Source: an uncultured Flavobacteriales bacterium
GTDB taxonomy: Bacteria > Bacteroidota > Bacteroidia > Flavobacteriales > Schleiferiaceae
Reading direction: 5' to 3'
Assembly: GCA_913055685.1 (NCBI GenBank)
Contig: CAJXKC010000001.1
Span: 496,001-560,000 of the forward strand
Length of the DNA: 64,000 bases
The position numbers were made by a program, and so were the translations under genes. Below, in pieces: positions 1,559-30,641 of this stretch. The notes beneath the pieces were generated by a model that saw only the letters and a program-made list of their open reading frames with translations, did no database searches and was not told the DNA's origin. Numbering within the stretch: the stretch's first letter is position 1; every line of letters begins with the position of its first letter.

Positions 1559-1691
1559 CCTTTTTTATATAGGCCCCGGAATGGGTGCCGGCACCATGAT
1601 TTTGGTTTTGGTAATTGCCGCCATAGTGGTTTTTTCCATTGGCTATATCATCTGGCTAAAAGCCAAAAAGCTATTTAAGAAAAAAGACTAA
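1545..1691 (+). CDS. 48-residue single-span membrane protein
   Basis: A short gene embedded between two sulfotransferase-type genes. The ATG at 1545 lies inside the last codons of the upstream gene, and the stop TAA (1689-1691) shares its A with the ATG of the downstream gene (TAATG), a typical coupling arrangement. The product starts MISNSLFYIGPGMG, has one hydrophobic helix (about residues 18-37, rich in I/L/V/A) and a strongly basic tail (KAKKLFKKKD), which predicts a cytoplasmic C terminus. An internal ATG at 1581 would give 36 residues. I do not recognise a family. The perfect overlap on both sides is the main reason to call it a gene. Confidence 0.65.
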   Translation: MISNSLFYIGPGMGAGTMILVLVIAAIVVFSIGYIIWLKAKKLFKKKD

Positions 1692-3055
1692 TGCCCTATT
1701 ATTTGCTCTTAGCTTTTGGGGGCTTATGGGCCGTTCTCTTCTTGCGCTTTAATCGCGCTTGGCTTTATAAAGTTGCCTTGAATAGTGTGGCGGTTCTCGA
1801 CACCATGCTTAGCGACAAGAGCGATGACGAAAAATTGGAAATACTGCCCAAGGCTACTGCCAGTTTACTGGGCTCACTTTTACTAAGTTTACTGCTTATT
1901 GTGCTGGCAATTGGCATTGCCTATTTGCCTTACGGCGGAAGCGAATACCTCTTTGGTCCTTCACCAGAAAGGCCAGCTTGGCTGGAGATTACCGCCCTTT
2001 CCATCGGTGCTTCCATTCCTTTCTTTTTGCCATTTAGGCGCGGACTCAGCAATTACTCGGAGCTTTCAATTTTACTGCACCGCTTAGTACTGAATCACCC
2101 AGCCATTGGCCTGCGTTTGTTTAAACGGGAGTTAAAACAAAAGAAAAAAGCCGGAATTGGGGCTCGGAAAGACTTTGTAATAATAAGTGGCTTGGCCCGA
2201 GCGGGAACCACCTCTTTGATGAACCTCCTCGCGGCCCGAGACGAATTAGACAGCCTTTCCTATGCCAATATGCCTTTTCTGCTGAGTCCAAATCTGTGGG
2301 CCAAGATTTACAATCCGAAAAAGGGAACCGAAAAAGAGCGCAGTCATAAAGATGGTATTAAAATCGGGCTAAAGTCTTATGAGGCCTTAGAAGAGTACTA
2401 TCATAAGGTGGCCGCTGATAATCGTTTCATTAAAGATAATCGGCTAGTTGAATACGACCTCCGCCAAGAGGAAGTTGAAAGCTACCTCGATTACCAAAGT
2501 TTAATTCGTAAAAGCGCCCGTCATCTATATTTAGCCAAAAACAATAACTTTCTACTCCGCTATAAAAGTATCCGCAAGTATAATAGCGATTTTGTTATGG
2601 TGCTTTTATTCCGGGAGCCTCTAAGCCATGCCAGCTCCTTAATGGAAAAACACCGTCAGTATTCAGAGATGCAAGCGCAGGACCCTTTTATACTGGAATA
2701 CATGAATTGGCTGGGCCACCATGAGTTTGGTGAGGGTCATAAGGCTTTTCAATTCGAAGGGCAAGCTTTGGTGGAAGGAAAGCCTCAGGACTTGAATTAC
2801 TGGCTAGAGCTTTGGCTTAATTATTACCAAAGGGCTCTAGCGATCGATGATTCTAAAACTTTATTCTTGGCCTATGAGGATTTTTGTGCTCAGCCAAATG
2901 AGGCACTCCATCGAATTTTTAAGGCTGTAAACCTTTCGCCCGAAAAAACCGCAATTCCAGCCTTTAAAAACTCCCGGGAAATTGAGGCTAAGGCAGACCC
3001 CGCCTTAGTGGAAAAGGCAGGGGCCCTTTATCAAAAACTAAAGGCTAAAGCTTAA
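1691..3055 (+). CDS. Membrane-anchored PAPS-dependent sulfotransferase-like protein
   Basis: 454 residues. Hydrophobic segments lie near 3-19, 60-80 and 97-115, followed by a soluble domain from about 160. GLARAGTTS (167-175) is the 5'-phosphosulfate-binding P-loop of sulfotransferases. A second typical region is FVMVLLFREPLSHASS, the 3'-phosphate loop area (Arg and Ser). Such enzymes move sulfate from PAPS to a hydroxyl on a carbohydrate, lipid or small molecule; the acceptor cannot be read from sequence. It is translationally coupled to the small membrane protein upstream. Its stop overlaps the stop of the convergent KAS III gene by 4 bp. The family call is firm, the substrate unknown. Confidence 0.78.
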   Translation: MPYYLLLAFGGLWAVLFLRFNRAWLYKVALNSVAVLDTMLSDKSDDEKLEILPKATASLLGSLLLSLLLIVLAIGIAYLPYGGSEYLFGPSPERPAWLEITALSIGASIPFFLPFRRGLSNYSELSILLHRLVLNHPAIGLRLFKRELKQKKKAGIGARKDFVIISGLARAGTTSLMNLLAARDELDSLSYANMPFLLSPNLWAKIYNPKKGTEKERSHKDGIKIGLKSYEALEEYYHKVAADNRFIKDNRLVEYDLRQEEVESYLDYQSLIRKSARHLYLAKNNNFLLRYKSIRKYNSDFVMVLLFREPLSHASSLMEKHRQYSEMQAQDPFILEYMNWLGHHEFGEGHKAFQFEGQALVEGKPQDLNYWLELWLNYYQRALAIDDSKTLFLAYEDFCAQPNEALHRIFKAVNLSPEKTAIPAFKNSREIEAKADPALVEKAGALYQKLKAKA

Positions 3056-4119
3056 ACGCGGTAGGTAATGGCGTTTATACTCATCCCCGCTCCTACCGAA
3101 GCCAATAAAATTATATCTCCTTCCTTGAGGTCGTCGTGGCCCTCCAACTGACCTTTGCGGAGAAGGTCCAATAAAGTAGGAACGGTAGCCACCGAACTAT
3201 TACCCAGTAAGTGAATACTCATAGGCATAATTCCCTCGGGGGCCGGAGTTTTATAAAGTCTAAAAAAGCGCTTAATAATAGCCTCATCCATCTTTTCGTT
3301 GGCTTGATGAATTAAGACTTTCTTTACCTGATTAATCGAAACTCCTGATCGATCCAAGCAAATTTTCATTGCGGCCGGTACATGGGTCAAGGCAAATTGA
3401 TAAATCTTGCTACCCTGCATTTTTATATAACGGGTGTCGTGGCCTGCCTCTGGATTGTAGCTTTCGCCATAATCCAAGAAATAAGCTTCCTCCTCGGTAA
3501 AGGTCTGGGAAGCGGTGCTTAAGATTCCCTTTTTTAAATCCTTATCTATCGCTTCTACCACTGCCGCTCCGGCACCGTCCGAGAAAATCATAGAATCGCG
3601 ATCATGCTTATCTACCTTACGCGATAAGGTCTCCGCTCCGATTACCAGATAACGTTTACCCTGGCCGGCCAAAATATAGTTATAGGCCAAAATCATGGCC
3701 TGCACCCATCCCGGACAACCGTAAAGTATATCGAAAGCAATACAATTCGGGTTTTTAATCTTCAGGTCGTGCTTAACCCGTGTAGCAAGACTGGGTAAAA
3801 TATCGGACTGAATCTTTCCGTGGGGAATATTTCCAAAATTGTGTGCCACAATAATGCCATCTAATGCTTCGGGCTCCACCCCAGAGTCCTCAATAGCTCG
3901 TTGCGCCGCAATAGTGGCTAAATCAGAGGTCTGCTGCTCTGGTTTCGCATATCGTCGCTCGCGGATACCGGTAATTTCTTCAAACTTGCGAATAGTCTCT
4001 TCTCCAGGTTGATCTATTAAAGCGCCTTCACGAGTGTAAAACTTGTTAGCAATGAAGTCTTCATTGGGAACTCTTAATTCAGGAATGCAAGATCCGGTAC
4101 CGGTAATTTCAAGGTTCAT
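3052..4119 (-). CDS. 3-oxoacyl-ACP synthase III (KAS III) family protein
   Basis: 355 residues with the full KAS III triad: Cys135 in LYGCPGW, His271 in LIHQANEKM and Asn307 in LGNSSVATVP. KAS III enzymes condense an acyl-CoA starter with malonyl-ACP. This one differs from housekeeping FabH around the cysteine (YGCPGW rather than ACSGF), so it may accept an unusual starter. It stands alone on the minus strand between a sulfotransferase and a FAS1 gene. A 23-bp palindrome just before its ATG nearly matches the one before the Nudix-type regulator at 18801, which ties it to the paa genes. Enzyme family sure; starter unit unknown. Confidence 0.85.
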   Translation of the reverse strand: MNLEITGTGSCIPELRVPNEDFIANKFYTREGALIDQPGEETIRKFEEITGIRERRYAKPEQQTSDLATIAAQRAIEDSGVEPEALDGIIVAHNFGNIPHGKIQSDILPSLATRVKHDLKIKNPNCIAFDILYGCPGWVQAMILAYNYILAGQGKRYLVIGAETLSRKVDKHDRDSMIFSDGAGAAVVEAIDKDLKKGILSTASQTFTEEEAYFLDYGESYNPEAGHDTRYIKMQGSKIYQFALTHVPAAMKICLDRSGVSINQVKKVLIHQANEKMDEAIIKRFFRLYKTPAPEGIMPMSIHLLGNSSVATVPTLLDLLRKGQLEGHDDLKEGDIILLASVGAGMSINAITYRV

Positions 4120-4121
4120 GG

Positions 4122-4144
4122 CTTAGTGTATTATTAACACAAAG
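4122..4144. promoter_or_regulatory. Candidate operator before the KAS III gene
   Basis: CTTAGTGT (4122-4129), a 7-bp AT spacer, ACACAAAG (4137-4144). The arms pair at 7 of 8 positions. It starts 3 bp upstream of the ATG at 4119, where a bound repressor would block initiation. It matches the palindrome at 19510-19532 in both arms except one base, with the same spacer length. Confidence 0.6.
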
Positions 4145-4210
4145 TAATAAAATCATTTTATCAAATGTATAAGAAGCTAGAAGATGCCAAAGCCATTGCC
4201 TAAAATATTG

Positions 4211-4260
4211 ACCAAACCTTTTGGTTTTGTTTAACGTTTATCATTATAAGTTAAACAAAA
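4211..4260. promoter_or_regulatory. Inverted repeats upstream of the FAS1 gene
   Basis: A perfect 11-bp inverted repeat, TTTTGTTTAAC (4225-4235) and GTTAAACAAAA (4250-4260), is separated by 14 bp and ends 12 bp before the ATG at 4273. A smaller repeat ACCAAA/TTTGGT (4211-4216, 4220-4225) abuts it. The hairpin is AT-rich and lacks a T-run, so an operator or an ECF-type promoter is more likely than a terminator. Confidence 0.45.
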
Positions 4261-4272
4261 AACACCTGTAAA

Positions 4273-5274
4273 ATGAAATCATTTTTAAAGAAAGGGCTTA
4301 TCCTAGCGATGAGCAGCATGATGTTTTTAAGCTCATGTTCAGACGATGACAACAATGACCAAAACCCAGATCCAGGACCGCAAAGTTTAACCGCCACCTT
4401 AGCTGCCGACGCACGCTTTAGTGTATTGGTGGACGCCTTGCAACGCACCGGCTTAGATGCGACACTAGATGCCTCAGGAACCTATACGGTATTTGCGCCC
4501 ACTGATGCAGCATTTACTACTGCCTTAGGCGATTTAGGCTACAATAGTTTAGATGAGTTAGAAGCCGCTTTAACTACTGCTGGATTACGCAATGTACTCT
4601 TGTATCACGTTTTAGGAGCCGAAGTAATGGCTGCTGATGTGAGCACAGTTTATGCCAGCCCGGCCGCCACAAACGCAGATGGTGACGCCCTGTCTTTATT
4701 CATTAATGCAGGTAGTGAAGTACTAATTAATGATGCCGCTACCGTTCGTGAAACCGACATCAACGCGAGCAATGGGGTGGCCCACGTTATTGATGCCGTA
4801 ATTCTACCCTTAAGTGTTTATGGCCTCATTCAGGTTAACCCAGACTACAGCAGCTTGGAGGCGGCCCTTGGTTTAGCTGATGGGAACCTAGACGACGTTC
4901 TAAGTGGCGACGCTGCTCAGTACACTTTATTTGCTCCAAATAATGCGGCCTTTGACACCGTAGTTGCAAATACTCCGGGGGTAAACAACTTGGGCGAACT
5001 AGTTGCAGCCCTAGGTACCGATGTATTGTCTACCGTTTTATTGTATCACGTAGTAGACGGAACCGTATTAGCGGCCGACCTAAGCACCGGCAGCGTAAAT
5101 ACCTTGGCCAGCGACGGTATGGGAGGCCAGCTTGATATATTCATTAATATCGGAACCGAAGTAAATATCATTGACGATAATAATGATACTCAGGATGCCG
5201 TAGTGACCGGCACCGACTTTGTGGGTACGAATGGCGCGATGCATACCATTAGCAGCGTTTTATTACCACAGTAG
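4273..5274 (+). CDS. FAS1 (fasciclin) domain surface lipoprotein
   Basis: 333 residues. A lipoprotein signal ends at Cys22 (FLSSC); the acidic stretch after it (SDDDNND) resembles the export signal that sends Bacteroidota lipoproteins to the cell surface. Two FAS1 domains follow, about residues 38-180 and 184-332, each with the TVFAPTDAAF / TLFAPNNAAF strand and the LLYHV-H motif. FAS1 proteins mediate adhesion or matrix binding. The gene is monocistronic: its own inverted-repeat upstream region on one side and a strong terminator 20 bp after its stop. Family call is certain; the ligand is unknown. Confidence 0.92.
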   Translation: MKSFLKKGLILAMSSMMFLSSCSDDDNNDQNPDPGPQSLTATLAADARFSVLVDALQRTGLDATLDASGTYTVFAPTDAAFTTALGDLGYNSLDELEAALTTAGLRNVLLYHVLGAEVMAADVSTVYASPAATNADGDALSLFINAGSEVLINDAATVRETDINASNGVAHVIDAVILPLSVYGLIQVNPDYSSLEAALGLADGNLDDVLSGDAAQYTLFAPNNAAFDTVVANTPGVNNLGELVAALGTDVLSTVLLYHVVDGTVLAADLSTGSVNTLASDGMGGQLDIFINIGTEVNIIDDNNDTQDAVVTGTDFVGTNGAMHTISSVLLPQ

Positions 5275-15584: not shown

Positions 15585-16193
15585 CTAGTTTTTTTCGTCT
15601 CGGCTAGCCGTTTCCTGCCAAGTTTGAAAAAGTTTGTCCTGCTTTGGCCGATTGGGCTCCACTTCACGCAGAGGCTCACATTTTTTTAGACTGTCATACA
15701 ATTCTCCTGGCAGCTCTTGATAAAGCTCGGTTCCCTTGGTTTTCCAAGCCAACATCTCCTCACTCACCTGCTTAATTACCTTAGCAGGGTTACCCACCAC
15801 CAAGCTGCGTTCTGGAATTTGGCTATCTCCTTTAATAAAGCTCAAAGCACCAACTATAGAGCCTGCGCCCACTGTAGATCGGTCCATTACCACGGCATTC
15901 ATCCCTACCAGGCAGTTCTGCCCAAGGTTGGCACCATGTATTATGGCACCATGACCCACATGCGCTCCCTTTTCTAATCGGATGCTTACTCCCGGAAACA
16001 TATGCACCACGCAGTTCTCCTGAATATTGCAACCATCCTCGATAATGATTTGCCCCCAGTCGCCGCGAATTATGGCACCCGGACCCACATAAACGTCTTC
16101 ACCAATAATGACATTGCCAATTATTACTGCCGTTTCGTGAATATAAGCCGATGCTTTTATGACTGGTTTAAAGCCCTGGAACTCGTAAATCAT
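15585..16193 (-). CDS. paaY: PaaY, hexapeptide-repeat thioesterase
   Basis: 202 residues with left-handed beta-helix hexapeptide repeats (IIGNVIIGEDVYVGPGA...) and the metal-binding His residues of the gamma-carbonic-anhydrase fold (CVVHMF, HVGHGAIIHG). The C-terminal extension with LAWKTKGTELYQ and EPLREVEPNRPK matches PaaY rather than generic family members. PaaY removes dead-end CoA thioesters such as the ring-hydroxylated 2-hydroxycyclohepta-triene-formyl-CoA in the phenylacetate pathway. Its ATG overlaps the stop of the upstream gene (TAATG), and paaJ lies just beyond, so it is in a paa operon. Confidence 0.92.
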   Translation of the reverse strand: MIYEFQGFKPVIKASAYIHETAVIIGNVIIGEDVYVGPGAIIRGDWGQIIIEDGCNIQENCVVHMFPGVSIRLEKGAHVGHGAIIHGANLGQNCLVGMNAVVMDRSTVGAGSIVGALSFIKGDSQIPERSLVVGNPAKVIKQVSEEMLAWKTKGTELYQELPGELYDSLKKCEPLREVEPNRPKQDKLFQTWQETASRDEKN

Positions 16194-17491
16194 TAATCCT
16201 TCAGATTTTTACGGACAAGGTAATTGCTTTCATCGATAAAATAAAGATCACTTCCTCGAACTTTGGTCTCCTTGGCAAAGAGCTCCACAAAAACCCCGCG
16301 TCCTAATTGGAAGTCTTCAATGGGGTGAATAAATACCGACCCACGCATCCGCCGTAAGGCAAATAAAGACTCGGACAAATGGTCTTGGATAATAATAGGG
16401 TTAATAAACTCCTTATCGATAGCAAAGTCCCTTTCCCAAATTAGGCTTCCGTCACCTTTTAAAAAGCGAAGCTTGTCTATAAAGTGGTCAAACACTAAAA
16501 AGCCCGACTGATAAGGGAAAACCTGTACCGGCCGATACTTAGAAAAAGCTCTTTGATAGATCTTTTGCTTTTCGGCTAAGTCAATAAGCTTACGATGATC
16601 CCAAATGCCAAATTCATCGAAAAGCCTTTCCATACCGGCAGCGATATTAAAAGCTTCCATAAAAGCGTCGTGCGCATAAATCACCGACTGAGTATCTACA
16701 ACATGGTAAAACTCTCGCGGCTCCTTTTCGGCTTCATAGATAAACATCTGCACCCCTTGGTTGTGGTATAAGGGAAAACTCATCGCCTTACCTCTGGTAC
16801 CCGCTCGCATCTCACTAATTGGGATGGGCATTGACTCTATCTTATTATTCCGAATTATTAAACGTTCCCCATCAACCGCCATTAAGGGTTCAATAAACTG
16901 AATATACTGGCTGCGGCTTACGGCCGGATAGAAATAAAGCATTTCTCGGCTCAAATAAACTTGGACCACAGAATCTTTCGCCAATAAGAAAATGTTTCCG
17001 CGGGGGTCCTTTTCCAAGGACTCGAAACCATAATTGTTGGGTAAGTAAAGTAAGACCCGCCAATCTAAGTTGGCCAATACAATGTAATCGTAGCCTAAAA
17101 CTAGTAGAAGACTGTCTTGTAATTCAAAATCGCGGACCCGAAGGGTATCGGTGAAAGGCACTTTAGCGGCACTTACTTCTACGGTGAGGAGCTCAATGTC
17201 ATTTTTCTCCAATTGAATATCAACCTGGCGCCCCTCGTAAAGCACATCCCAATTGAGTTCAATAAGCTTGATGAAATAACCTTCTTTAAATATTTGGAAT
17301 TGGCTTCCTGCTTCGTAGGGCAGATCAATGATACCCTTAGCATTACTAGGTCCATATTCCTTACCTATAAAGTTTATAGCAAGCACTCCTTCAATGGGCT
17401 GCGAATTTTCATCCACTATTCGTAGAGTCTGGGTCTGACCATAAATATTAGCCGCCAGAAGAAGCCCTAGTAAAAGAAAAAACCTTTTCAT
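16193..17491 (-). CDS. Uncharacterised secreted protein in the paa operon
   Basis: 432 residues from the ATG at 17491 (MKRFFLLLGLLLAANIYGQ is a signal peptide; the upstream in-frame Met adds only VFKN). After the signal, residues about 20-85 resemble a carboxypeptidase-regulatory-like beta-sandwich (IVDENSQPIEGV ... KGIIDLPYEAG), common in envelope proteins. The remainder (YDYIVLANLDWRVLLYL, a propeller-like pattern) is unrecognised. It lies 33 bp after paaJ and is coupled to paaY by a stop-start overlap, so it is very likely co-expressed with the pathway. Whether it takes part in phenylacetate use is unknown. Confidence 0.75.
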   Translation of the reverse strand: MKRFFLLLGLLLAANIYGQTQTLRIVDENSQPIEGVLAINFIGKEYGPSNAKGIIDLPYEAGSQFQIFKEGYFIKLIELNWDVLYEGRQVDIQLEKNDIELLTVEVSAAKVPFTDTLRVRDFELQDSLLLVLGYDYIVLANLDWRVLLYLPNNYGFESLEKDPRGNIFLLAKDSVVQVYLSREMLYFYPAVSRSQYIQFIEPLMAVDGERLIIRNNKIESMPIPISEMRAGTRGKAMSFPLYHNQGVQMFIYEAEKEPREFYHVVDTQSVIYAHDAFMEAFNIAAGMERLFDEFGIWDHRKLIDLAEKQKIYQRAFSKYRPVQVFPYQSGFLVFDHFIDKLRFLKGDGSLIWERDFAIDKEFINPIIIQDHLSESLFALRRMRGSVFIHPIEDFQLGRGVFVELFAKETKVRGSDLYFIDESNYLVRKNLKD

Positions 17492-17524
17492 GTTTTTAAA
17501 GACCAAAAGCAGGCCTGAGGTTGC

Positions 17525-18733
17525 CTAAGCGCGTTCTAAAACTACCGCATAACCTTGACCCACACCGATACACATAGTGCAAAGCGCGTATCGTTTACCG
17601 GTTTTTTGTAGCTGAATTGCCGCCGTTTGCAATAAGCGCGCCCCCGACATTCCGAGTGGGTGGCCTAAAGCAATCGCCCCGCCATTAGGATTAATTCGTG
17701 GGTCGTCGTCGGCCAAGCCCATTAGTCGCGTGCAGGCTAAAACTTGAGCGGCAAAAGCTTCGTTAAGCTCAATGATATCTATATCCGCCAAAGAAAGTCC
17801 CGCTTTCTTAAGTGCAATTTCGGAGGCGTAAACCGGACCAATTCCCATCACGCGTGGCTCCACTCCCGCTACTCCCATTGACACCATTCGGGCTAAGGGC
17901 TTTAATTGATGGTCTTTTATTCCTTGCTCTGATGCTACTAAAAGAGCGGCCGCACCATCGTTCAAGCCTGAGGCATTTCCAGCGGTAACCGAACCTCCCT
18001 CCTTCTTAAAGGCAGGACGTAGTTTGGCTAAAACCTCCATCGATGAGCTAGGCTTGATGAATTCATCCTGGTCAAAGATTAAATCCTCTTGTTTGCGTCG
18101 CGGAATAGATACCGCCACAATCTCCTCCGCCATACGGCCGTTTTCACGAGCGGCGCTGGCTTTTTGCTGCGACCAAAGGGCAAACCGATCTTGATCCTCC
18201 CTACTTATTCCATATTCGGCCACTAGGTTTTCGGCCGTTTCGCCCATCGCGTCGGTACCGTAGCGCTTGAACATTTCTGGGTTCACAAATCGCCAGCCGA
18301 AAGAACTATCGTACATCTTAGAATCGGTACCAAAAGCCTTAGAGGGCTTACTCATTACGTAAGGGGCGCGCGTCATCTGTTCTAAGCCCCCGGCGACAAA
18401 AACCTCGCCATCACCATTACGCACGGCACGCATAGCCTGGGCACCAGCACTCATTCCACTAGCACATAATCGATTTACCGTTTCACCGGGCACCGAGAAA
18501 GGAAGTCCCGCTAATAAAGCGCTCATCCGCGCTACATTGCGATTATCCTCACCCGCCTGATTGGCACAGCCCATAATTACGTCGGCAATAGATTTGGGGT
18601 CAAGCTGAGGATTGCGTTCCATCAACTCTTTTATAACTAAGGCGCCCATATCGTCTGCTCTTACAGCCGAAAGGCTTCCTCCAAAACTGCCAATAGGGGT
18701 GCGAATTCCGTCTACGATAAATGCTTCTTTCAT
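17525..18733 (-). CDS. paaJ: PaaJ, 3-oxoadipyl-CoA / 3-oxo-5,6-dehydrosuberyl-CoA thiolase
   Basis: 402 residues from the ATG at 18733 (MKEAFIVDGIRTPIG, the standard thiolase start; the nine extra upstream codons are not conserved). Catalytic residues are Cys90 (NRLCASGM), His358 (ALGHPLG) and Cys388 (TMCIGVGQG). The sequence agrees with the PcaF/PaaJ subfamily, which releases acetyl-CoA from 3-oxo-5,6-dehydrosuberyl-CoA and splits 3-oxoadipyl-CoA into succinyl-CoA and acetyl-CoA, the last steps of the pathway. It follows the Nudix-type regulator by 67 bp and precedes the uncharacterised gene and paaY on the same strand. Confidence 0.92.
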   Translation of the reverse strand: MKEAFIVDGIRTPIGSFGGSLSAVRADDMGALVIKELMERNPQLDPKSIADVIMGCANQAGEDNRNVARMSALLAGLPFSVPGETVNRLCASGMSAGAQAMRAVRNGDGEVFVAGGLEQMTRAPYVMSKPSKAFGTDSKMYDSSFGWRFVNPEMFKRYGTDAMGETAENLVAEYGISREDQDRFALWSQQKASAARENGRMAEEIVAVSIPRRKQEDLIFDQDEFIKPSSSMEVLAKLRPAFKKEGGSVTAGNASGLNDGAAALLVASEQGIKDHQLKPLARMVSMGVAGVEPRVMGIGPVYASEIALKKAGLSLADIDIIELNEAFAAQVLACTRLMGLADDDPRINPNGGAIALGHPLGMSGARLLQTAAIQLQKTGKRYALCTMCIGVGQGYAVVLERA

Positions 18734-18800
18734 GTGAGGTGTTTTTGGGTTCAAAACCAAATTCCTTGCGAATATCGCAAACCGGCCGCGAAGGCGCTAA

Positions 18801-19502
18801 TTATTGATACACGAAATCGTATCCTTTGAGGGAAAGGGTGCGGTACTTTTTCTCATCAAACTTAAACAGTGCGCTGGGTCGCTTAGCCCGAGGGGAGCTG
18901 CGAACCGTCTTTCCCGTTTCCAATAGCAATTCGCTCTTCAACAACTTTCGTCGGAAGTTTCTTTTATCCAAAGATTTGCCCAAAGCTTGCTCGTAGAGAC
19001 TCTGAATTTGATTTAGGGTGAACTCTTGGGGTAAAAGGCTAAAGCCAATTGGGCGCCGCTTAACCCTTCGCTTTAGACGCTCACGCGAGTATTCTACAAT
19101 ATCCGCATGGTCATAAGCCAAAGGCGGCAAGTCATTTACCTTTACCCAACGGTATTCGCTACGTTGCAGGTTGTAGTGGACATTATCATCTAAACGAAGG
19201 GTACCGTAATACGCGATATTTACTACTCGACCAGAGGGGTTTCGATAAGGGTCGGAAAAAGCATTTAAGATTTCAACTGGCCAATCATCTCGTCCAGTGA
19301 TGCGTCGCATTAGCTCCTTGGCAACGATAAAGGTGTCCTCATCAGGGCGAACCTTAACTGAGGGTAATACATTAGCACCCGCAAATGGCTCATTACTCTT
19401 GGTGGCAATAAGGAGTTTTAAATCCTCGCCATCAAAGCCGTACAACACCACTGAGGTGGCCAAGGCAACCTTAAAATCTTCTTCTCTGAATTCGACCCGC
19501 AT
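18801..19502 (-). CDS. NrtR-type Nudix transcriptional regulator, candidate paa regulator
   Basis: 233 residues. The N-terminal 140 residues have a Nudix fold, but the Nudix box is destroyed (RPDEDTFIVAKELMRRITGRDD lacks the REUXEEXG core), as in Nudix proteins turned ligand sensors. The C-terminal part (about 150-233) is the winged-helix domain of NrtR-family repressors (LLPQEFTLNQIQSLYE ... LDKRNFRRKLL). Relatives bind metabolites and control sugar or NAD genes. Here it sits inside the paa run, between paaI and paaJ. A perfect 23-bp palindrome 7 bp before its ATG suggests autoregulation. Control of paa genes is inferred; the classical PaaX/PaaR regulators are not seen. Confidence 0.85.
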   Translation of the reverse strand: MRVEFREEDFKVALATSVVLYGFDGEDLKLLIATKSNEPFAGANVLPSVKVRPDEDTFIVAKELMRRITGRDDWPVEILNAFSDPYRNPSGRVVNIAYYGTLRLDDNVHYNLQRSEYRWVKVNDLPPLAYDHADIVEYSRERLKRRVKRRPIGFSLLPQEFTLNQIQSLYEQALGKSLDKRNFRRKLLKSELLLETGKTVRSSPRAKRPSALFKFDEKKYRTLSLKGYDFVYQ

Positions 19503-19509
19503 AATTTTA

Positions 19510-19532
19510 CTTAGTGTAAATATAACACTAAG
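19510..19532. promoter_or_regulatory. Palindromic operator of the Nudix-type regulator
   Basis: CTTAGTGT (19510-19517), 7-bp spacer, ACACTAAG (19525-19532): perfect 8-bp arms. On the minus strand it contains TATATTTA, one mismatch from the TAnnTTTG box, so binding would cover the promoter. The copy at 4122-4144 differs by one base in the arms. Confidence 0.7.
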
Positions 19533-19546
19533 CTAAGGAATTTATT

Positions 19547-19954
19547 TTACCACTCCGTGTTTTTTCGAAAAACCGTACCCTTAAAATGAGCGATTAGATC
19601 CTCATTTTCAGCATATACGCGCACCTCGTAGATTCCAGTACTACGGGTTTTCTTTATTTCTTTTGCCTCCGCCCATATCGTTTCTCCCGCCTTTACCGGT
19701 TTAAGGTGTGAAATGGAGGTCTCAATTGACAAGGCATGGGTTCCGTGACCATTAGAGGCAAAGGCCAGGGCACTGTCCGCTAAAGAATAGGAAATCCCAC
19801 CGTGCGCAATCTTAAAGCCATTGGTCATTTCATCGCGAACCTCCATGCTTAATTTGCAGTAACCGGGTTCGGTAATCAATACTTTTATGCCCAGCCACTG
19901 ACTAAAAGCATCTCCATCGTACATGGTTTTTACTACTTCGGCTGCGCTTTTCAT
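19547..19954 (-). CDS. paaI: PaaI hotdog thioesterase
   Basis: 135 residues, hotdog fold with the PaaI motif HGGISYSLADSALAFASN (His-Gly-Gly and the catalytic Asp). PaaI hydrolyses hydroxyphenylacetyl-CoA and other stalled thioesters, returning free CoA. The length equals that of characterised PaaI (about 140 residues). Its start overlaps the stop of the hypothetical gene upstream by 4 bp, and the Nudix-type regulator follows after 44 bp on the same strand, so all three probably share a transcript. Confidence 0.9.
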   Translation of the reverse strand: MKSAAEVVKTMYDGDAFSQWLGIKVLITEPGYCKLSMEVRDEMTNGFKIAHGGISYSLADSALAFASNGHGTHALSIETSISHLKPVKAGETIWAEAKEIKKTRSTGIYEVRVYAENEDLIAHFKGTVFRKNTEW

Positions 19955-20433
19955 TTGTTTTCTTCGGTTTTATTCTGATCGTAATCGGCCATCCTTTCAA
20001 TTAAGGATATTAAAACATCTAGTATGAGGTTAAAATTAGCCTGATCAGCTACCGGGGCTTTATCCAGCTTTGCCTTAAAGATCGCTCTATTCTTAAGATC
20101 GTCAAAGACCTTGGGGCTGTCGGTATGGACTTCATGCTTATCGGCCTCTTCGTAAGCCTCGGTTTTTTCCTTGATGATTTCTTCCACCACGGGCGCTGGA
20201 ATCATACTTACTGGCAATCCGGCCGAAATAAAGGCATTGAGCAATATCATTACCGAGTCTACTAAAGCCTCGTGTTGCTCGTCATTAAAGTCATCGGCAA
20301 TATTGGTTAAGAAACCCATTAAATAGGGTTGATCCTCCATTACCCGGGCAATCATCTGACCTTGCTCCTGAGCATCCATAGCGTGGTAATCGGCAATAGC
20401 CTCCGCAATGTGATCGCGTTTCTTTTTATCCAT
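19951..20433 (-). CDS. Conserved-looking acidic hypothetical protein coupled to paaI
   Basis: 160 residues, soluble, no signal peptide, mostly predicted helix, with many acidic residues and a charged tail (YDQNKTEENK). I do not recognise a family. It overlaps paaI by 4 bp (ATGA) and follows the ferredoxin gene by 35 bp, so it sits inside the co-directional paa run. Its helical make-up would suit a small adaptor or chaperone, but nothing in the sequence proves that. Confidence 0.7.
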   Translation of the reverse strand: MDKKKRDHIAEAIADYHAMDAQEQGQMIARVMEDQPYLMGFLTNIADDFNDEQHEALVDSVMILLNAFISAGLPVSMIPAPVVEEIIKEKTEAYEEADKHEVHTDSPKVFDDLKNRAIFKAKLDKAPVADQANFNLILDVLISLIERMADYDQNKTEENK

Positions 20434-20468
20434 GCCGCAAAATTACATTTTTCTAGGCTGCGGCCTCG

Positions 20469-20792
20469 CTAATCCCCTTTCTTCTCACCCCAGAAACCGG
20501 AATGCTTGCGCAAGCTTAAATCGCCCTGTACTTCTATCTGGCAGGCCAAACGTAAGCCTTCGGTAATTTGGTGGGGCGGAAAATTAAGTCGCCAACGCTC
20601 ACGCTTATTGAGAGGGGAAACTTCCCCGCTTAAAACCTCAACCGCGCAGGTGCCACAGGTACCCAAACCCTTACAATTTATTTGCTGGGCGGCGCCATTA
20701 TGCGGACTCAAGCCAGCAGCCTTTAGCGCCTTGCGTAGATTTCTACCCTTAGAAACTTCAAATGAATGACCTTTGAATTCAATTTTTGGCAT
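20469..20792 (-). CDS. Plant-type [2Fe-2S] ferredoxin
   Basis: 107 residues with cluster ligands Cys40, Cys46, Cys49 and Cys84 (C-X5-C-X2-C...C; the first spacing is one longer than the common C-X4-C-X2-C). The rest fits the beta-grasp ferredoxin fold. It would carry single electrons to an oxygenase or reductase. PaaE already carries its own [2Fe-2S] domain, so its partner is not obvious. Neighbours are an ABC exporter upstream and the hypothetical gene coupled to paaI downstream, all on the minus strand. Confidence 0.87.
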   Translation of the reverse strand: MPKIEFKGHSFEVSKGRNLRKALKAAGLSPHNGAAQQINCKGLGTCGTCAVEVLSGEVSPLNKRERWRLNFPPHQITEGLRLACQIEVQGDLSLRKHSGFWGEKKGD

Positions 20793-20845
20793 AATCCCTA
20801 AACGGCAGAGCCGACTAATTGTGCATAAAAGAAAGCCTCCCGGTT

Positions 20846-21571
20846 TTAAGCCTCTTCGGCCGACCTTATTTTATTGATGAAGAACTCCTCCAGCTCACCG
20901 AGCGTTTGTTCGCTGGTATGAATGTCTTTTACCACCTGGCCGTGATCTAGAATAACAATGCGTTCACAAAACTTGGTAACGTGACCTAAATCGTGGCTGC
21001 TAATGAGCATAGTTATATCGGTTTCCTCGTCCAGCTTTTTCAGCTCATCCAGAAGACGAAATTGGGTAGAGGGGTCTAAATTAGCGAAGGGCTCATCCAA
21101 AATAAGAATGTCTGGGTTTCCAATTAGCGCCCCTACAATTCCCACCTTCTTTTGATTGCCCTTACTTAGATCGCGGATGTATTTCTTTTTCCCTCTAATT
21201 TCATCGTTAAAGAAGTCGTCGTATTTCGACAAGACCGCTTCCAGGTCACCGGCACTCATTTTGTGCAGCTTGGCAATAAAGGCGAAGTACTCATCCGGAG
21301 TTAAATAATCAATGAGAAAGCCCTCGTCGATAAAACTTCCTGTGTATTGCTTCCACTCTTCAGATTGGGCTACGTTTTTACCCTGACTAAGAACCTCGCC
21401 AGTATCGGCGGCAATGAGGTCCAAAATTAAGCGGAACAAAGTGGTCTTTCCCGCTCCATTATTACCCACTAAGCCTAAAGACTGTCCTTTGTTAAACTCT
21501 AATTGCTCTATGTCAAGGACCTTGCTGCCATTGTAGGACTTCGAAAGGCCTTTTACTGATATTATACTCAT
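20846..21571 (-). CDS. ABC transporter ATP-binding protein
   Basis: 241 residues with Walker A GNNGAGKTT (36-44), signature LSKGNQKK, Walker B ILILDEPFANLD and the switch His in SSHDLGHV. It pairs with the DUF5687 permease upstream, 5 bp away. Together they form an exporter of the ABC-2 style; the cargo is unknown. The pair lies between paaH and the ferredoxin on the same strand as the paa genes. Confidence 0.92.
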   Translation of the reverse strand: MSIISVKGLSKSYNGSKVLDIEQLEFNKGQSLGLVGNNGAGKTTLFRLILDLIAADTGEVLSQGKNVAQSEEWKQYTGSFIDEGFLIDYLTPDEYFAFIAKLHKMSAGDLEAVLSKYDDFFNDEIRGKKKYIRDLSKGNQKKVGIVGALIGNPDILILDEPFANLDPSTQFRLLDELKKLDEETDITMLISSHDLGHVTKFCERIVILDHGQVVKDIHTSEQTLGELEEFFINKIRSAEEA

Positions 21572-21576
21572 GTGTT

Positions 21577-23055
21577 TTAGTCTTTTTGACGGTAGCCCGC
21601 CGCGTTAATGTATTTCTTTTCCTTAAAGTTGAGCACCGTTTGCTTGATAAAGTAATTCTGAAAGATCAAGCCTATTATTCCCAATGCCCCTAAGGCAATA
21701 AGACCGTAGTATTCGGCGTCAAAAACGGCAAAGCCCATGTATACCAGCATGGGCAGGCCAATTAAGGGCAGAACAATCACAAACTGTGCGGCCCCAGTGC
21801 CTTGGTAGTTGAAAGCCGAACCCCGACTTAAGTCAATTGGCTTCTTATTATACGTACTAGCGAAAATTAGGACTGCCGTATTAATCCCAATATTGTATAG
21901 CGCTGCCGCCAAGTTTCGGTACAAGGCGTCTATCCCAAAATATACATAGGGAATGGTTAGCACAAACATGAGCACCACACCAAATACCATTAAGTAATAC
22001 TTCGATCGATAGTAATCCTCCATGGAATAGGCCCTGGTTAAAATCCCATCAAAATAGGAACTCTCCCAACTCACCAAAAACTGACCATAATTAATCATAA
22101 AAACCCCCGTCATAAATATGCTCACAAAAAGCAACATCCCGTCCCGATTAGCAAACTCTTCTTGGGTATAAAAAAACAGGCCATAAAGGGCCATAAAGGC
22201 AGCGGTGTATACCACCACTTTGGTGCGCTTGTTACGCAATATTAACTTCAGCTCATTGGCAATCATCATCCCCATAAAGCCTTTGTCCTCAAGAAAGCTA
22301 AAGCGTAAACTCGAGGCTTCCTTGGCTTTACTTCGCCAGCGGTCGAGGTGGGTCATGGACAATAAAAAACGGAAGTTCAATTGGTACATGAGCACTAAAA
22401 GGGCCAAGGCCAGTGGCGCTCCGATCAGGGTCTCGGCCAAGGGGCTGTAAATCATCGCCGAAAGCGGACCTAAGTCGATTAAGTCCATTGAATTGGCAAT
22501 AAAGAGTCCGGCTACTATAAGGCCAAAGCCAATGGTGATTACCGGTTTCACCGCCACCACACGCTTTAGATAAATCGCTAGGTAATGATTACTCAGAATG
22601 AGCATGATAAAGCCTACAAACCATAAGCCCGCTTGCAGCGCCCCATACTCCATGGGCACCACTCTTAGGGCCCAGGGCACAATAAATAATAAGGGCAACA
22701 AATTGAAAAAGCTGAACACCGAGCTTTGCAGTAAAAAGTGCACCACGCGCTTCTTAGATAGCGGAGTGGTGAGGTAATGCTGTACCGAGAGCACATTTAA
22801 ATCCTGCAAGAAAAAACGCATCGCTAAATCCGCTAAGAAATAGTACAATACGCCCTTGCTAAAAATGGGCGTCAGCTTATCGGCTTCTGGAAAAGTATCC
22901 CCCAGAATCTCCTTCATAAAGTAACCTAAAAGGCCGAAAGAGCCCAAAAAGTAAAGGGCAACCAGCAGCAGTAAAATCTTTATCCCCCAGCCTTGCCGAA
23001 AAAAGGTGGAGCGAAAGATCTTTTTAAACTGATGCCTAAATAATTCACTGTGCAT
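21577..23055 (-). CDS. DUF5687-type ABC permease
   Basis: 492 residues and about 10-12 hydrophobic spans, beginning with a cytoplasmic stretch (MHSELFRHQFKKIFRSTFF) and a first span near 27-47. The layout matches the DUF5687 family of Bacteroidota ABC permeases, always encoded beside an ATPase like the one at 20846. It would form the membrane channel of the exporter. Substrate unknown. It follows paaH by 93 bp on the same strand, so it may be in the paa transcript or have its own promoter. Confidence 0.85.
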   Translation of the reverse strand: MHSELFRHQFKKIFRSTFFRQGWGIKILLLLVALYFLGSFGLLGYFMKEILGDTFPEADKLTPIFSKGVLYYFLADLAMRFFLQDLNVLSVQHYLTTPLSKKRVVHFLLQSSVFSFFNLLPLLFIVPWALRVVPMEYGALQAGLWFVGFIMLILSNHYLAIYLKRVVAVKPVITIGFGLIVAGLFIANSMDLIDLGPLSAMIYSPLAETLIGAPLALALLVLMYQLNFRFLLSMTHLDRWRSKAKEASSLRFSFLEDKGFMGMMIANELKLILRNKRTKVVVYTAAFMALYGLFFYTQEEFANRDGMLLFVSIFMTGVFMINYGQFLVSWESSYFDGILTRAYSMEDYYRSKYYLMVFGVVLMFVLTIPYVYFGIDALYRNLAAALYNIGINTAVLIFASTYNKKPIDLSRGSAFNYQGTGAAQFVIVLPLIGLPMLVYMGFAVFDAEYYGLIALGALGIIGLIFQNYFIKQTVLNFKEKKYINAAGYRQKD

Positions 23056-23148
23056 GTAGAAGTCTTTTGCTAGTTAGTAGCAGTTTAGACTCCTAAATTA
23101 CAGGCTTTGAAAAAATAATGCTGATTATTTCTTCCGCTTAATGAAATT

Positions 23149-24291
23149 TTAACTGAATTTTACCTTGCGACGCAAGAGAACTGAAGCCCGGTAACGGTCT
23201 TCGCGGTAATCGTCGTACAAAGCATCTAGGCGTTTTAAAACTTCGGCCGGACCAATTTCATCGGCCCAAGCCAATAAGCCTTTAGGGTAGTTTACTCCTT
23301 TGGTCATAGCCAAATCAATATCCTTTGCCGAGGCAATCCCTAGGTGAAGCGCGTCCACCGCTTCATTAATGAGCATTGCCACAATCCGGTCTAGAATCGC
23401 CTTGCCTAATTCCTCATCCCTATTCGGTTCTGGCTTTGTCGCTCCCTCGCTGTAATCGTAAAACCCAAAACCTGTTTTGCGCCCCAGTCGGCCCGCTTCT
23501 ACCAAACGCTTCTGACTAAAGTTTGGCTTGTAACGAGGGTCATAGAAAAAGGCCGTCCATACGCTTTCCGTAACCGCATAATTAACATCGTGACCAATAA
23601 AATCCATTAGGGTAAAGGGCCCCATCCGAAAGCCCCCCAATTCGGTCATCGCCCAATCGATAGTGGCTGGATCGGCCATCCCTTCCTCATAAATTCGCAC
23701 CGCCTCGCTATAGAAAGGACGCGCGACACGATTTACGATAAAGCCAGGAGTGTCTTTGGCCAAAACCGTCACCTTGCCCCAAGCATCGATAATGGACTTG
23801 GCTTTATCCACTGTTTCAGCTGCGGTGGTAATCGCCGGAATTATTTCCACCAAAGGCATTAGGGGAGCCGGATTAAAAAAGTGAATACCCAAAACCTTCC
23901 CAGGGTCCTTAACCGCCGAAGCGATGGAAGCAATAGACAAGGAACTAGTATTAGACGCTAATATGCAATCCTCACCACAGAGCTCATCTAAGTGACGGAA
24001 AATCTCTTTTTTAACCTCAATATTCTCGACAATAGCCTCAATCACTAAAGCACAGTTTTCCATACTAGCCATACCGGTGTCGTACTTAATCCGCTTCAAA
24101 ATGGCCTTACTTTCTTCTTCCGAAAGTTTACCTTTTTCTTGCAGCCTGGCCATAATTTTCTCATGCCCTTGCCTCGACTTTTCCAAGGCCGCCCTTTGCG
24201 TATCCACGATAACCACCTCGTGACCGTTCTGAGCGGCAACTTGCGCAATTCCTGAGCCCATGGCTCCTGCTCCAACAATACCTACTTTCAT
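23149..24291 (-). CDS. paaH: PaaH, 3-hydroxyadipyl-CoA dehydrogenase
   Basis: 380 residues. The Rossmann motif GAGAMGSG (7-14) binds NAD+; the active-site region contains GIHFFNPAPLMPLVE with the catalytic His, and ASNTSSLSI before it. Two C-terminal 3HCDH segments follow (about 190-285 and 295-380). E. coli PaaH is longer (475 residues), but this shorter form is common outside enterobacteria. It oxidises 3-hydroxyadipyl-CoA to 3-oxoadipyl-CoA. It lies 55 bp after paaG on the same strand. A general 3-hydroxybutyryl-CoA dehydrogenase is the alternative; the context favours PaaH. Confidence 0.87.
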   Translation of the reverse strand: MKVGIVGAGAMGSGIAQVAAQNGHEVVIVDTQRAALEKSRQGHEKIMARLQEKGKLSEEESKAILKRIKYDTGMASMENCALVIEAIVENIEVKKEIFRHLDELCGEDCILASNTSSLSIASIASAVKDPGKVLGIHFFNPAPLMPLVEIIPAITTAAETVDKAKSIIDAWGKVTVLAKDTPGFIVNRVARPFYSEAVRIYEEGMADPATIDWAMTELGGFRMGPFTLMDFIGHDVNYAVTESVWTAFFYDPRYKPNFSQKRLVEAGRLGRKTGFGFYDYSEGATKPEPNRDEELGKAILDRIVAMLINEAVDALHLGIASAKDIDLAMTKGVNYPKGLLAWADEIGPAEVLKRLDALYDDYREDRYRASVLLRRKVKFS

Positions 24292-24346
24292 TTTATTTTC
24301 TTTTAGGCTTTCGCCTGATGAGATTTCAGCAAAAGCTTTTCTATCA

Positions 24347-25126
24347 TTAATGTCCTTTGAACTCCGGTGCTCTCTTTTCTAAAAAAGCGGCCGTACCCTC
24401 ACGGTAGTCATGGGAGGCACCACATTCAGTTTGGTACTTATCTTCCAGGGCCAGCTGGGCACTAAGGTCATTGGCATAGCTGGCATTTAATAAGGCTTTG
24501 GTACGCGCCAAGGCCAAGGTGGGCATCTGACTCAATTGCTCGGCAATTTTTTGCGCCGCCGCCAAAAAACCTTCATCGGGCAAAGCTTTGTAGATCATAC
24601 CCATTTTCTCAGCATCTGCAGCATTAACTTTTTCACCCAGCATCATTAGAGCGGAGGCTTTCTGCATGCCTACCAGACGTGGCAGAGTATAAGTGCCACC
24701 ACTATCGGGAATTAAACCAATCTTAGAAAATGCCTGAATAAAAGACGCCGATTCGGCTGCTAGCACTATATCGCAGGCCAAAGCAATATTAGCGCCTGCC
24801 CCAGCCGCAACGCCGTTCACCGCGGCCACTACTGGCTTGTTTAAATTTCGGATTTGCTCGATAATGGGATTATAATGTTCGGTTACAATTTTGGTGAGCT
24901 CTGGTCCATTGGGATCTGTCGCCTCAGCTAAATCTTGCCCAGCACAAAAGGCTCGACCTTCTCCACTAATAAGCACCGCTCGTACCGATGAATCGACCTG
25001 AGCGTTATTGAGCTCCGACTGCAGTGCCAAAGCCATTTCACGAACAAACGAGTTGAATTTATTTGCACGATTTAAGGTGATTTTTAACACCCCACCTATA
25101 CGTTCTGAAAGAATGAATTCGGACAT
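24347..25126 (-). CDS. paaG: PaaG, ring-1,2-epoxyphenylacetyl-CoA isomerase
   Basis: 259 residues from the ATG at 25126 (MSEFILSERIGGVLKITLNR, the usual crotonase start; the upstream extension is not conserved). Crotonase motifs are GRAFCAGQDLAEA (oxyanion hole), AAGAGANIALACDIVLA and IPDSGGTYTLPRLVG; the acidic Asp in the last segment fits the isomerase. PaaG turns 1,2-epoxyphenylacetyl-CoA into oxepin-CoA and also shifts double bonds later in the pathway. It is the first gene of the long minus-strand paa run. A degenerate copy of the regulator palindrome lies 45-67 bp upstream. Confidence 0.9.
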   Translation of the reverse strand: MSEFILSERIGGVLKITLNRANKFNSFVREMALALQSELNNAQVDSSVRAVLISGEGRAFCAGQDLAEATDPNGPELTKIVTEHYNPIIEQIRNLNKPVVAAVNGVAAGAGANIALACDIVLAAESASFIQAFSKIGLIPDSGGTYTLPRLVGMQKASALMMLGEKVNAADAEKMGMIYKALPDEGFLAAAQKIAEQLSQMPTLALARTKALLNASYANDLSAQLALEDKYQTECGASHDYREGTAAFLEKRAPEFKGH

Positions 25127-25170
25127 GAAATTTCTTTTGCCGCTAAGGTAGGGAATGCTTGGCTTTTGGA

Positions 25171-25193
25171 TTAAGCATTTAATAAACACTTAG
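25171..25193. promoter_or_regulatory. Weak operator-like site before paaG
   Basis: On the minus strand CTAAGTGT (25193-25186), 7-bp spacer, ATGCTTAA (25178-25171). The first arm is one mismatch from the palindrome at 19510, the second arm four. A TACCTTAG box (25150-25143) lies between it and the ATG. Suggestive only. Confidence 0.3.
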
Positions 25194-25249
25194 CAGACAA
25201 CACCTGCAGAGCCATTGGGTAATTTTAGCCTAAACCAAATCTTAATCTG

Positions 25250-26008
25250 ATGAAAAAATACGCTACCCTCGTGTTGGCCCTAGCCGTTATGCTAGTCTCC
25301 GCACAAACCAAGGTAAATGTTAGCCTACCAAGTCTTAGCTTGCCACTTTTTCCCCAGGGCTCCGAAAATGGATCCCTTTCAATTGGCCTAAGTAGCGACT
25401 TTAATGGCTTTGGAACTTCTTTCGAGCTTAAACAAGCCCTAGCCTCACCGCTCTATCTAAGCCTAAGTTCCAGCGGTGTTGTGGGAAAAATAGAGGCCAC
25501 AGGCATAAGGGATTATAAGGCTGACTATACCATTGCTAATTTCAACGCCGGCCTCGGCTACCACCTGCCAAAGAAAGGGCTCTGGATGAGGGAGCTTTCG
25601 TATCAAGCGCAATTATCGGTATCGTCCTATTATCTTGATGATTATGCTTTAGGAGCTTACGACCTATATACCTCAATTGCCTTAGAACATTCCGCCTTTT
25701 TATTTCTTTCTAAAGACCAAAAAAACACCCCCCTCTATGTTATTGGCCTAGCTTATTCAGAGCTTAAAGACGGTCTTAACTCACTACCTTATGGTAATTA
25801 CCCCGACCTATTTATTGGCCCAGAAACAGGAAGCCAAGCCCTATTCTTAAAACCCGGTGTGGGCTTTCGGAGCTATTTTGGAAAACATTTGAATTACTCC
25901 TTCTTGCTTTGCTCCAACCTGGCCGTTTGGAAAAAAGGAACATTTCGCCACTCGATAATGGCAAAGTTTTTACTTGATATCAACTGGTATCGTGAAAGTG
26001 CTAGTTGA
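25250..26008 (+). CDS. Secreted hypothetical, probable outer-membrane barrel
   Basis: 252 residues. MKKYATLVLALAVMLVSAQ is a signal peptide. The mature part has alternating hydrophobic/polar stretches (LYLSLSSSGVVGKIEAT, YHLPKKGLWMRELSYQAQLSVSSYYL), aromatic girdles and a strand-like C terminus (AKFLLDINWYRES), which fit a small outer-membrane beta-barrel. No family recognised. It is divergent from paaG with a 123-bp gap, and it breaks the minus-strand paa run; nothing else links it to the pathway. Confidence 0.65.
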   Translation: MKKYATLVLALAVMLVSAQTKVNVSLPSLSLPLFPQGSENGSLSIGLSSDFNGFGTSFELKQALASPLYLSLSSSGVVGKIEATGIRDYKADYTIANFNAGLGYHLPKKGLWMRELSYQAQLSVSSYYLDDYALGAYDLYTSIALEHSAFLFLSKDQKNTPLYVIGLAYSELKDGLNSLPYGNYPDLFIGPETGSQALFLKPGVGFRSYFGKHLNYSFLLCSNLAVWKKGTFRHSIMAKFLLDINWYRESAS

Positions 26009-26033
26009 GCAGAATATTGACCTAAAATTTCTA

Positions 26034-26930
26034 CTACAACTTTTGCCAACGTTTCGTCTCTCCACCGATTTGCAATAGGTAAATGCCTGGCTCTAAAAAA
26101 GCTAGGTCCAATTGACTTGAGGCCTCAAGATCTGCAGACCACACCTTTTGTCCGTCCATGGCAAAAATTTGGATTCTTGCAGGCTCTTTAAGGTCAATAG
26201 TAAGCTTACCAGTAGAAGGGTTTGGGTAGAGCTTCCACTCTTGAGCCTGCGCTTTGCTTTCCATTGGCAAGCTCATATCGCAAGGGCCGGCGATAGCTGG
26301 GGAGGGTCTATCCCAATCGTCTTTTTGATAATAAATGGAGTCACCCACACTAAAACAATCTAGACTAATGCGAAACATGGATACATTCGGAAACGGGTCC
26401 CAAAAAAGACCTTGACTATTACCTATACCATCAATCCAATAAGCATTGTCTAATCCCAATACTCTATGCATTCCTAAGCTAGTTTGAATGGTATCTACGG
26501 AACGAATAATTACCGGATTAAAAATGTCGCTGAGCTTATAAATGCTGGGGGCTTGGGCAAAATCGTAAATCACATAACAATCTTTCACTGTGTCTCCCAC
26601 CTGCAAACCAAAGTCATAAATTTTATAGGCCCGACTACTATCCTTGGGCAGTACCCATACCGCATCAGCAATCTGCTTTATTCCTCCTAAATATTGATTT
26701 GGATTGTTACCAGAGAACAACTGATGGTAGGTCTCCCCCGCAATTAATGTGTCTCTATTGCCTAAGCGAAACTTTTCGGTATAACTTAGAGTTTCGTAGG
26801 GAATAGGATTGCCCCCCTGAAAGTTGTATTGATAATGACTATTTATCCATGCCGCATTTGAATCGGGAAAAGAAACAAAGTTCTGGGCGGCTAAAGAGGT
26901 GGTCAAAAGGCAGAGTAAGAGACGCAACAT
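26034..26930 (-). CDS. Secreted protein with T9SS sorting domain
   Basis: 298 residues. A signal peptide (MLRLLLCLLTTSLAAQ) is followed by a central domain of about 200 residues that I cannot assign (YHQLFSGNNPNQYLGGIKQ ..., often seen in short Bacteroidota secreted proteins). The C-terminal 75 residues from WKLYPNPSTGKLTIDL to WQKL are a type A sorting domain, so it should cross the outer membrane by type IX secretion. It lies between paaG and paaD on the paa strand, 45 bp after paaD, but a role in phenylacetate use is not indicated. Confidence 0.82.
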   Translation of the reverse strand: MLRLLLCLLTTSLAAQNFVSFPDSNAAWINSHYQYNFQGGNPIPYETLSYTEKFRLGNRDTLIAGETYHQLFSGNNPNQYLGGIKQIADAVWVLPKDSSRAYKIYDFGLQVGDTVKDCYVIYDFAQAPSIYKLSDIFNPVIIRSVDTIQTSLGMHRVLGLDNAYWIDGIGNSQGLFWDPFPNVSMFRISLDCFSVGDSIYYQKDDWDRPSPAIAGPCDMSLPMESKAQAQEWKLYPNPSTGKLTIDLKEPARIQIFAMDGQKVWSADLEASSQLDLAFLEPGIYLLQIGGETKRWQKL

Positions 26931-26975
26931 ATCCTTCTATTTCCGCCAATTTAGCCTTTTTAAGCTGCCCGCCGA

Positions 26976-27461
26976 TCAAAGGCACTTAAAATAATCGAAG
27001 GGCTCTTGGCAATCCTCGCATTTATAAAGCGCTTTACAGGCGGTTGAGCCAAACTGGGAAACCATAGTAGTATTGCGGGATTTACAATGGGGACAGGTCA
27101 CTTTCTTTGGTTCGGCGAATAAAACCGACTTATCGGCCGAACTCCCTTCGGGCGGAGCAATACCATATTCTTGCAGTTTTTGTTTGCCCCCCTCTGTCAT
27201 CCAGTCTGTGGTCCAAGGTGGGGATAAAATGGTCTCAACCTCAACATTAGTAAAGCCTTCTTCCTTTAGAGCTTCTCTAATGTTTTCTTCGATTTCGTTC
27301 ATGGCTGGGCAGCCCGAATAAGTAGGTGTAATCTTTACCTTAAGTTTTTCACCTTCTTCTTCAACATCCCGCACCACACCGAGATCTACCACGGTTAAAA
27401 CCGGAATCTCGGGATCCGAAACACGCTTTAAAATATCCCAGATTTTTCCTTCCATTTCCAT
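26976..27461 (-). CDS. paaD: PaaD, phenylacetyl-CoA epoxidase maturation/accessory subunit
   Basis: 161 residues. An N-terminal MIP18/DUF59 domain (IWDILKRVSDPEIPVLTVVDLGVVR ... TPTYSGCPAM) is followed by a four-cysteine zinc-ribbon-like tail (CPHC ... CEDC, ending FDYFKCL), the exact PaaD layout. PaaD is thought to help assemble or deliver Fe-S clusters to the PaaABCE epoxidase. It is separated from paaC by a gene on the opposite strand, so it needs its own promoter. The start may be Met1 or Met3. Confidence 0.93.
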   Translation of the reverse strand: MEMEGKIWDILKRVSDPEIPVLTVVDLGVVRDVEEEGEKLKVKITPTYSGCPAMNEIEENIREALKEEGFTNVEVETILSPPWTTDWMTEGGKQKLQEYGIAPPEGSSADKSVLFAEPKKVTCPHCKSRNTTMVSQFGSTACKALYKCEDCQEPFDYFKCL

Positions 27462-27613
27462 CCTACAATGAGTCTATAAAAATAAGGCCTTTTTAGGCTT
27501 AAATGTTTGAAAGGCTAAAACCGCAATCATGATTTAAAGGATTTAGGCCGAATCTAAATACTCTTGCCTACAATTTCGTACCTTCATAGCAGCGTGCCTT
27601 AATCTCCCTAGTC

Positions 27614-28483: not shown

Positions 28484-28492
28484 GCATAAAAA

Positions 28493-28509
28493 AGGCCCCC
28501 AGGGGGCCT
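28493..28509. terminator. Bidirectional terminator between convergent genes
   Basis: AGGCCCCC (28493-28500) and GGGGGCCT (28502-28509) form a GC-rich stem; A-run before and CTTT after make it usable from both sides. It lies between the stops of the gene at 27614 and paaC. Confidence 0.85.
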
Positions 28510-28525
28510 CTTTAATAATATCAAT

Positions 28526-29278: not shown

Positions 29279-29297
29279 AATAATTCGTTTTTAAAGA

Positions 29298-29588: not shown

Positions 29589-29620
29589 GGTTTATAGCTA
29601 AGGCCTAGTGGCGGTTAATC

Positions 29621-30577: not shown

Positions 30578-30584
30578 ATCACGT

Positions 30585-30609
30585 CTTTTTTGAGAGCGTT
30601 ACAAAGATA
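30585..30609 (-). promoter_or_regulatory. paaABC promoter box and leader
   Basis: Minus strand: TATCTTTG (30609-30602), a full match to TAnnTTTG, then CGCTCTCAAAAAAG (30598-30585), identical to the 14-nt leader before paaZ. No good TTG -33 box is visible at the usual distance. Confidence 0.6.
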
Positions 30610-30641
30610 TAATCTATATAGGAAACTATTGAGGTCTCGAA

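Follow-up and report, generated by a model that had tools for sequence, protein, structure and literature searches.

A putative NrtR/AraR-class operator upstream of a stand-alone KAS III-family gene in one species of Flavobacteriales

In an uncultured Flavobacteriales bacterium, a gene of the KAS III family and the gene of a Nudix-type regulator are preceded by nearly the same 23-bp palindrome, which raises the question of what the palindrome does at the KAS III gene and which protein reads it. Both copies lie in the window analysed here, a stretch of 64,000 nt. The site before the KAS III gene occupies positions 4122-4144 on the minus strand, has the form CTTAGTGT-N7-ACACAAAG and reads in full CTTAGTGTATTATTAACACAAAG; on the KAS III strand it is CTTTGTGT-TAATAAT-ACACTAAG, followed by CC and then by the ATG (4119-4117, minus strand). 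The initial annotation had the letters and coordinates of this palindrome exactly right, and gave the gap to the start codon as 3 bp when it is 2 bp. The palindrome is imperfect, with 7 of 8 arm pairs matching. Its claimed near-identical partner is indeed present as a perfect palindrome (CTTAGTGTAAATATAACACTAAG) at 19510-19532 on the minus strand, sharing 15 of 16 arm bases and the 7-bp spacer, and ends 7 bp ahead of the ATG of the regulator gene, here called NRTR1 (18801-19502, minus strand), of which it is probably the autoregulatory operator. A recent duplication of the 19510 site was rejected as the source of the 4122 site, since homology between the two stops at the 23 bp.

The KAS III-family gene (3052-4119, minus strand) encodes 355 amino acids with the Pfam domains ACP_syn_III and ACP_syn_III_C, forms a single-gene unit and converges with a sulfotransferase-type gene at 1691-3055. 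Because its product scores under the NCBIfam cut-offs for FabH, we regard it as a divergent KAS III and not as FabH proper. An attempt to read its function from gene neighbours yielded no link, as these vary by lineage (GcvP, GMP synthase, a glycosyltransferase, cytochrome bd).

The form of the palindrome points to a known class of operator. BtAraR, a regulator of the NrtR/Nudix family, has the operator core AGTGT-N7-ACACT, and its EMSA-tested operator fragments contain AGTGTATTTGATACACC, AGTGTTACTTTTACACC and AGTGTAAAAAAGACACT (PMC4666351). Half-site and 7-bp spacer are the same in the window sites: the inverted AGTGT/ACACT half-sites are perfect at 19510, and the KAS III site keeps 9 of the 10 core bases with a spacer of 7. 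NRTR1 itself matches the Pfam families NrtR_WHD (77.4 bits) and AraR_C (53.8 bits), both over cut-off, with the NrtR winged-helix domain following a degenerate Nudix-like domain, and among solved structures it is closest to AraR of Bacteroides thetaiotaomicron (E 8.4e-40), aligning with AraR residues 17-221. AraR contacts the GTGT half-site through K179, R180, N181 and R183 of the recognition helix and K204 and R205 of the wing; all six are identical in NRTR1 (recognition helix DKRNFR, wing KR), and the position of AraR K184 is held by R. Since the half-site and spacer match tested AraR operators and the contact residues of NRTR1 are kept, the assignment to this class is well supported, and the palindrome at 4122-4144 is, judged from sequence, very probably an operator of the NrtR/AraR class.

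The site also coincides with a likely promoter element. Six congeners carry a conserved TTCCTTTG element that ends 16-17 nt before the KAS III ATG and resembles the -7 box of flavobacterial sigma-A, for which the consensus is TAnnTTTG (PMC9723704). The aligned letters in the species studied here are TTACTTTG (4140-4147, minus strand), a -7-like element into which the first arm of the operator, CTTTGTGT, extends; the sole departure of the KAS III arm from a perfect half-site is a T for A, the base that preserves TTTG. The palindrome at 19510-19532 likewise encloses a -7-like TATATTTA (19517-19524), and the NRTR1 promoters of several congeners and relatives have TATATTTG, TATCTTTG or TAACTTTG within the palindrome. 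In G004, a congener that lacks the palindrome, TATATTTG is still present at an equal distance before NRTR1. Operator and -7-like box thus overlap at both KAS III and NRTR1, as one would expect if repression acted by occlusion.

We therefore favour, with a probability of about 60%, the reading that the palindrome serves a repressor of the NrtR/AraR class as its operator and that one species gained it over the core promoter of the stand-alone KAS III gene. The two half-sites, which lie about a helical turn from each other, would be occupied by an NrtR-type dimer, with the autoregulated NRTR1 as the most likely candidate; the bound dimer would mask both the -7 element and the likely transcription start of KAS III and thereby block RNA polymerase. 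A metabolite on the Nudix-like domain may relieve this repression by shifting the winged helices out of register, by analogy with BtAraR, in which the ligand moves them in that manner (PMC4666351). Binding, repression, the acting paralogue and the ligand at the KAS III operator are what we infer; KAS III and NRTR1 are likely members of the same regulon. Counted against this reading is that the product of KAS III and the NRTR1 unit are not connected in function in any obvious way.

That unit continues, with a gene order kept in the genus, as a probable transcription unit on the minus strand (15585-18760) that includes a PaaJ/PcaF-type thiolase (from 17525), a 437-aa protein without assigned function (16193-17506) and a PaaY-type protein (15585-16193). 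It belongs to a phenylacetate-degradation-type cluster at 15585-31836 with homologues of PaaA, B, C, D, E, G, H, I, J and Y, which holds an NrtR-type regulator where PaaX or PaaR is usual. The neighbourhood of NRTR1 is common to the congeners and shared in part by one further genome (G013); the remaining genera examined have other neighbours. As its neighbours are phenylacetate-type genes and not genes of arabinose utilisation, NRTR1 was not classed as an AraR orthologue in the sense of an arabinose regulator. Only NRTR1's own unit has a site: the motif was absent before paaA, paaE, paaD, paaG, paaH and paaI, and control of the whole cluster by NRTR1 through this motif was rejected on that ground. 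Nine other genomes have the palindrome close to the start codon of their NRTR1 orthologue; in three of the nine, all congeners, it is perfect.

NRTR1 is one of three NrtR-type paralogues in the genome. NRTR2 (G000:C1:817985-818680) is divergent from pfkA (pfkA region L017:1894-3684), and the third (G000:C1:718686-719348; L177:2082-2858) adjoins genes for a sodium:solute symporter and a CBM48/T9SS-sorted protein. The KAS III site could be a real operator read mainly by NRTR2, or by both NRTR1 and NRTR2, so that KAS III would belong to a glycolysis/alpha-glucan regulon. NRTR2 has the same recognition helix (DKRNFRKK), and between its gene and the upstream neighbour (pfkA where checked) 24 of the 30 family genomes read have a site with the consensus CTTAGTGTA-N5-TACACTT, nearly the motif of NRTR1. 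The other good sites of the genome, of the type AGTGTA-N5-TACACT (L016:6133, 7193 and 9486; L018:3491; L179:2004 and 9445; L019:3145), are near pfkA, glgB, GH31, a CBM/USP pair, pckA, amylase-family genes and an aldehyde dehydrogenase gene, and in other family genomes sites adjoin a GAPDH-type gene, TonB receptors and a glutamate-dehydrogenase-type gene. From the position of these sites NRTR2 looks like the regulator of a central-carbon (glycolysis) and alpha-glucan regulon. The KAS III site, however, scores 23.5 bits on the NRTR1 weight matrix, within the leave-one-out range of 19.4-29.6, and 19.9 on the NRTR2 matrix, slightly under the range of 21.8-30.4, the two training sets being small (9 and 18 sites, respectively); the next unrelated site in the window reaches 9.7 bits on the NRTR1 matrix. 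It also lacks the symmetric GTGTA-N5-TACAC centre, and its place at the start codon is the one typical of NRTR1 sites, whereas those of NRTR2 are 28-126 bp away from the NRTR2 start. Matrix score and placement modestly favour NRTR1 as the reader, and we consider a KAS III gene answering mainly or jointly to NRTR2 possible but unlikely. The proposal of the initial annotation that KAS III is in the regulon of the Nudix-type regulator thus stands as likely from operator class, score and placement, with the pfkA-linked NRTR2, which has a near-identical motif and more sites, as the alternative reader. In one other genus of the family (L255, L257, L259, L260 and L262), a palindrome of the form CTTAGTGT-N7-ACACTWAG is conserved between a SecA gene and a RidA-like (L-PSP) gene.

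The match before KAS III could also be due to chance, or be non-functional, with no regulatory role. In its favour is the absence of the site from every orthologous KAS III gene examined. Conservation there had been suggested as a check, and at up to 3 mismatches the palindrome was found upstream of none of approximately 104 orthologues, comprising six congeners, 19 further relatives and 80 loci from genome contigs, one of which is apparently a congener already counted. The six congener genes are 81-88% identical to KAS III and, where both are on one contig, lie 15-35 kb from the regulator. As no orthologue has the site, the KAS III operator is without phylogenetic support, and since no other species examined has a site there it looks, from these comparisons, like a recent gain at the level of the species.

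The frequency of the motif speaks against chance. Within the window only the 4122 and 19510 sites match at up to 3 mismatches, each counted on both strands, against an expectation of 0.54 matches, and none of 100 shuffles reached 4. No match at up to 1 mismatch occurred in 20 Mb of second-order Markov sequence under either of two models, and at the same threshold permuted-arm palindromes occurred in 0.70 Mb of real DNA at 0.047 per Mb. Across 88 family genomes the true motif was found at 32 places at this threshold and a reversed control at 3. The earlier claim that arms and spacer are very unlikely to be shared by chance therefore held against four nulls, and sites at up to 1 mismatch are expected at approximately 0.03-0.15 per genome anywhere, and fewer in promoters. 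The count across the 2.96-Mb genome, which the initial annotation had proposed with the remark that many unrelated copies would mark a common repeat, gave 3 places at up to 1 mismatch and 5 at up to 2, compared with none at either threshold for the reversed control; the motif is accordingly not a dispersed repeat. Moreover, the site coincides with the promoter of a single gene, and the leaders of the congeners do not come near it in sequence. Because they differ from it at many positions, we argue for a selected gain over drift, with a single species showing the site. A match without function is accordingly improbable.

A role of the operator at the divergently oriented fasciclin gene (4273-5274, plus strand) in place of KAS III is very improbable: the two genes do have a common 153-bp intergenic region in which the site lies, but approximately 128 bp separate it from the fasciclin ATG and 2 bp from that of KAS III, and the fasciclin gene has an upstream stretch of its own (approximately 4212-4261) that is conserved in three congeners without the palindrome at KAS III. 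This stretch, 85-90% conserved in those congeners, contains an inverted repeat, TTTGTTTAAC-N14-GTTAAACAAA, which is a candidate for the fasciclin promoter or for an operator there. Least probable is that the inverted repeat acts as a hairpin in the RNA beside the start codon of KAS III or as a terminator, and we rejected both: a short hairpin is possible beside the ATG (-5.8 kcal/mol), but its stability is ordinary (z -1.06), no terminator-like site was found, and the letters, beyond their pairing, match protein operators and recur well upstream of other genes.

A repressor operator gained over the KAS III promoter would illustrate one way in which a gene may join a regulon, namely when, in a single species of a genus, a new operator comes to lie on a conserved promoter element, and would tie a palindrome found in raw sequence to an experimentally characterised operator class. 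Somewhat doubtful, but worth stating, is the fuller proposal that a local Nudix-type repressor encoded within the phenylacetate cluster has captured KAS III while a paralogue with a near-identical operator runs glycolysis and alpha-glucan genes, with cross-talk at shared sites; if true, the breakdown of aromatic compounds or acyl-CoA would be coupled to a fatty-acid-type condensation step in one species. In Flavobacteriales the analysis also reveals NrtR/AraR-type paralogues whose motifs overlap, among them the regulator next to pfkA, which were not described in the literature searched; nor did the searches on Bacteroidota turn up control of phenylacetate, glycogen or pfk genes by a regulator of the Nudix or NrtR type.

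Among known systems, local regulators inside paa clusters are represented by PaaX and PaaR, which belong to protein families other than that of NRTR1; the main text of a survey of phenylacetate clusters (PMC13186573) makes no mention of a Nudix or NrtR regulator. The NrtR of NAD metabolism (for example Shewanella oneidensis NrtR, PDB 3gz5/3gz6) is of the same family as NRTR1 (E 7.8e-18) but is farther from it than AraR and, as aligned, has the recognition helix GKSFRR instead of DKRNFR; no NAD gene was identified here close to the motif sites. XylR of Bacteroides (BT0791; PMC3878776), also of the NrtR family, resembles the present case in that a catabolic operon is under local control, but acts on xylose genes. 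The closest known system is AraR (BT0354, Bacteroides thetaiotaomicron; PMC4666351; PDB 5bs6, 5dd4, 5ddg, 5deq), which is alike in the operator core, in the residues of recognition helix and wing, in the combination of a winged helix with a degenerate Nudix-like domain, and in having sites at promoters, that of its own operon included. It differs in that NRTR1 is not clustered with arabinose genes and sits in a phenylacetate-type cluster, and in that the outer arms of the window sites are CTT/AAG.
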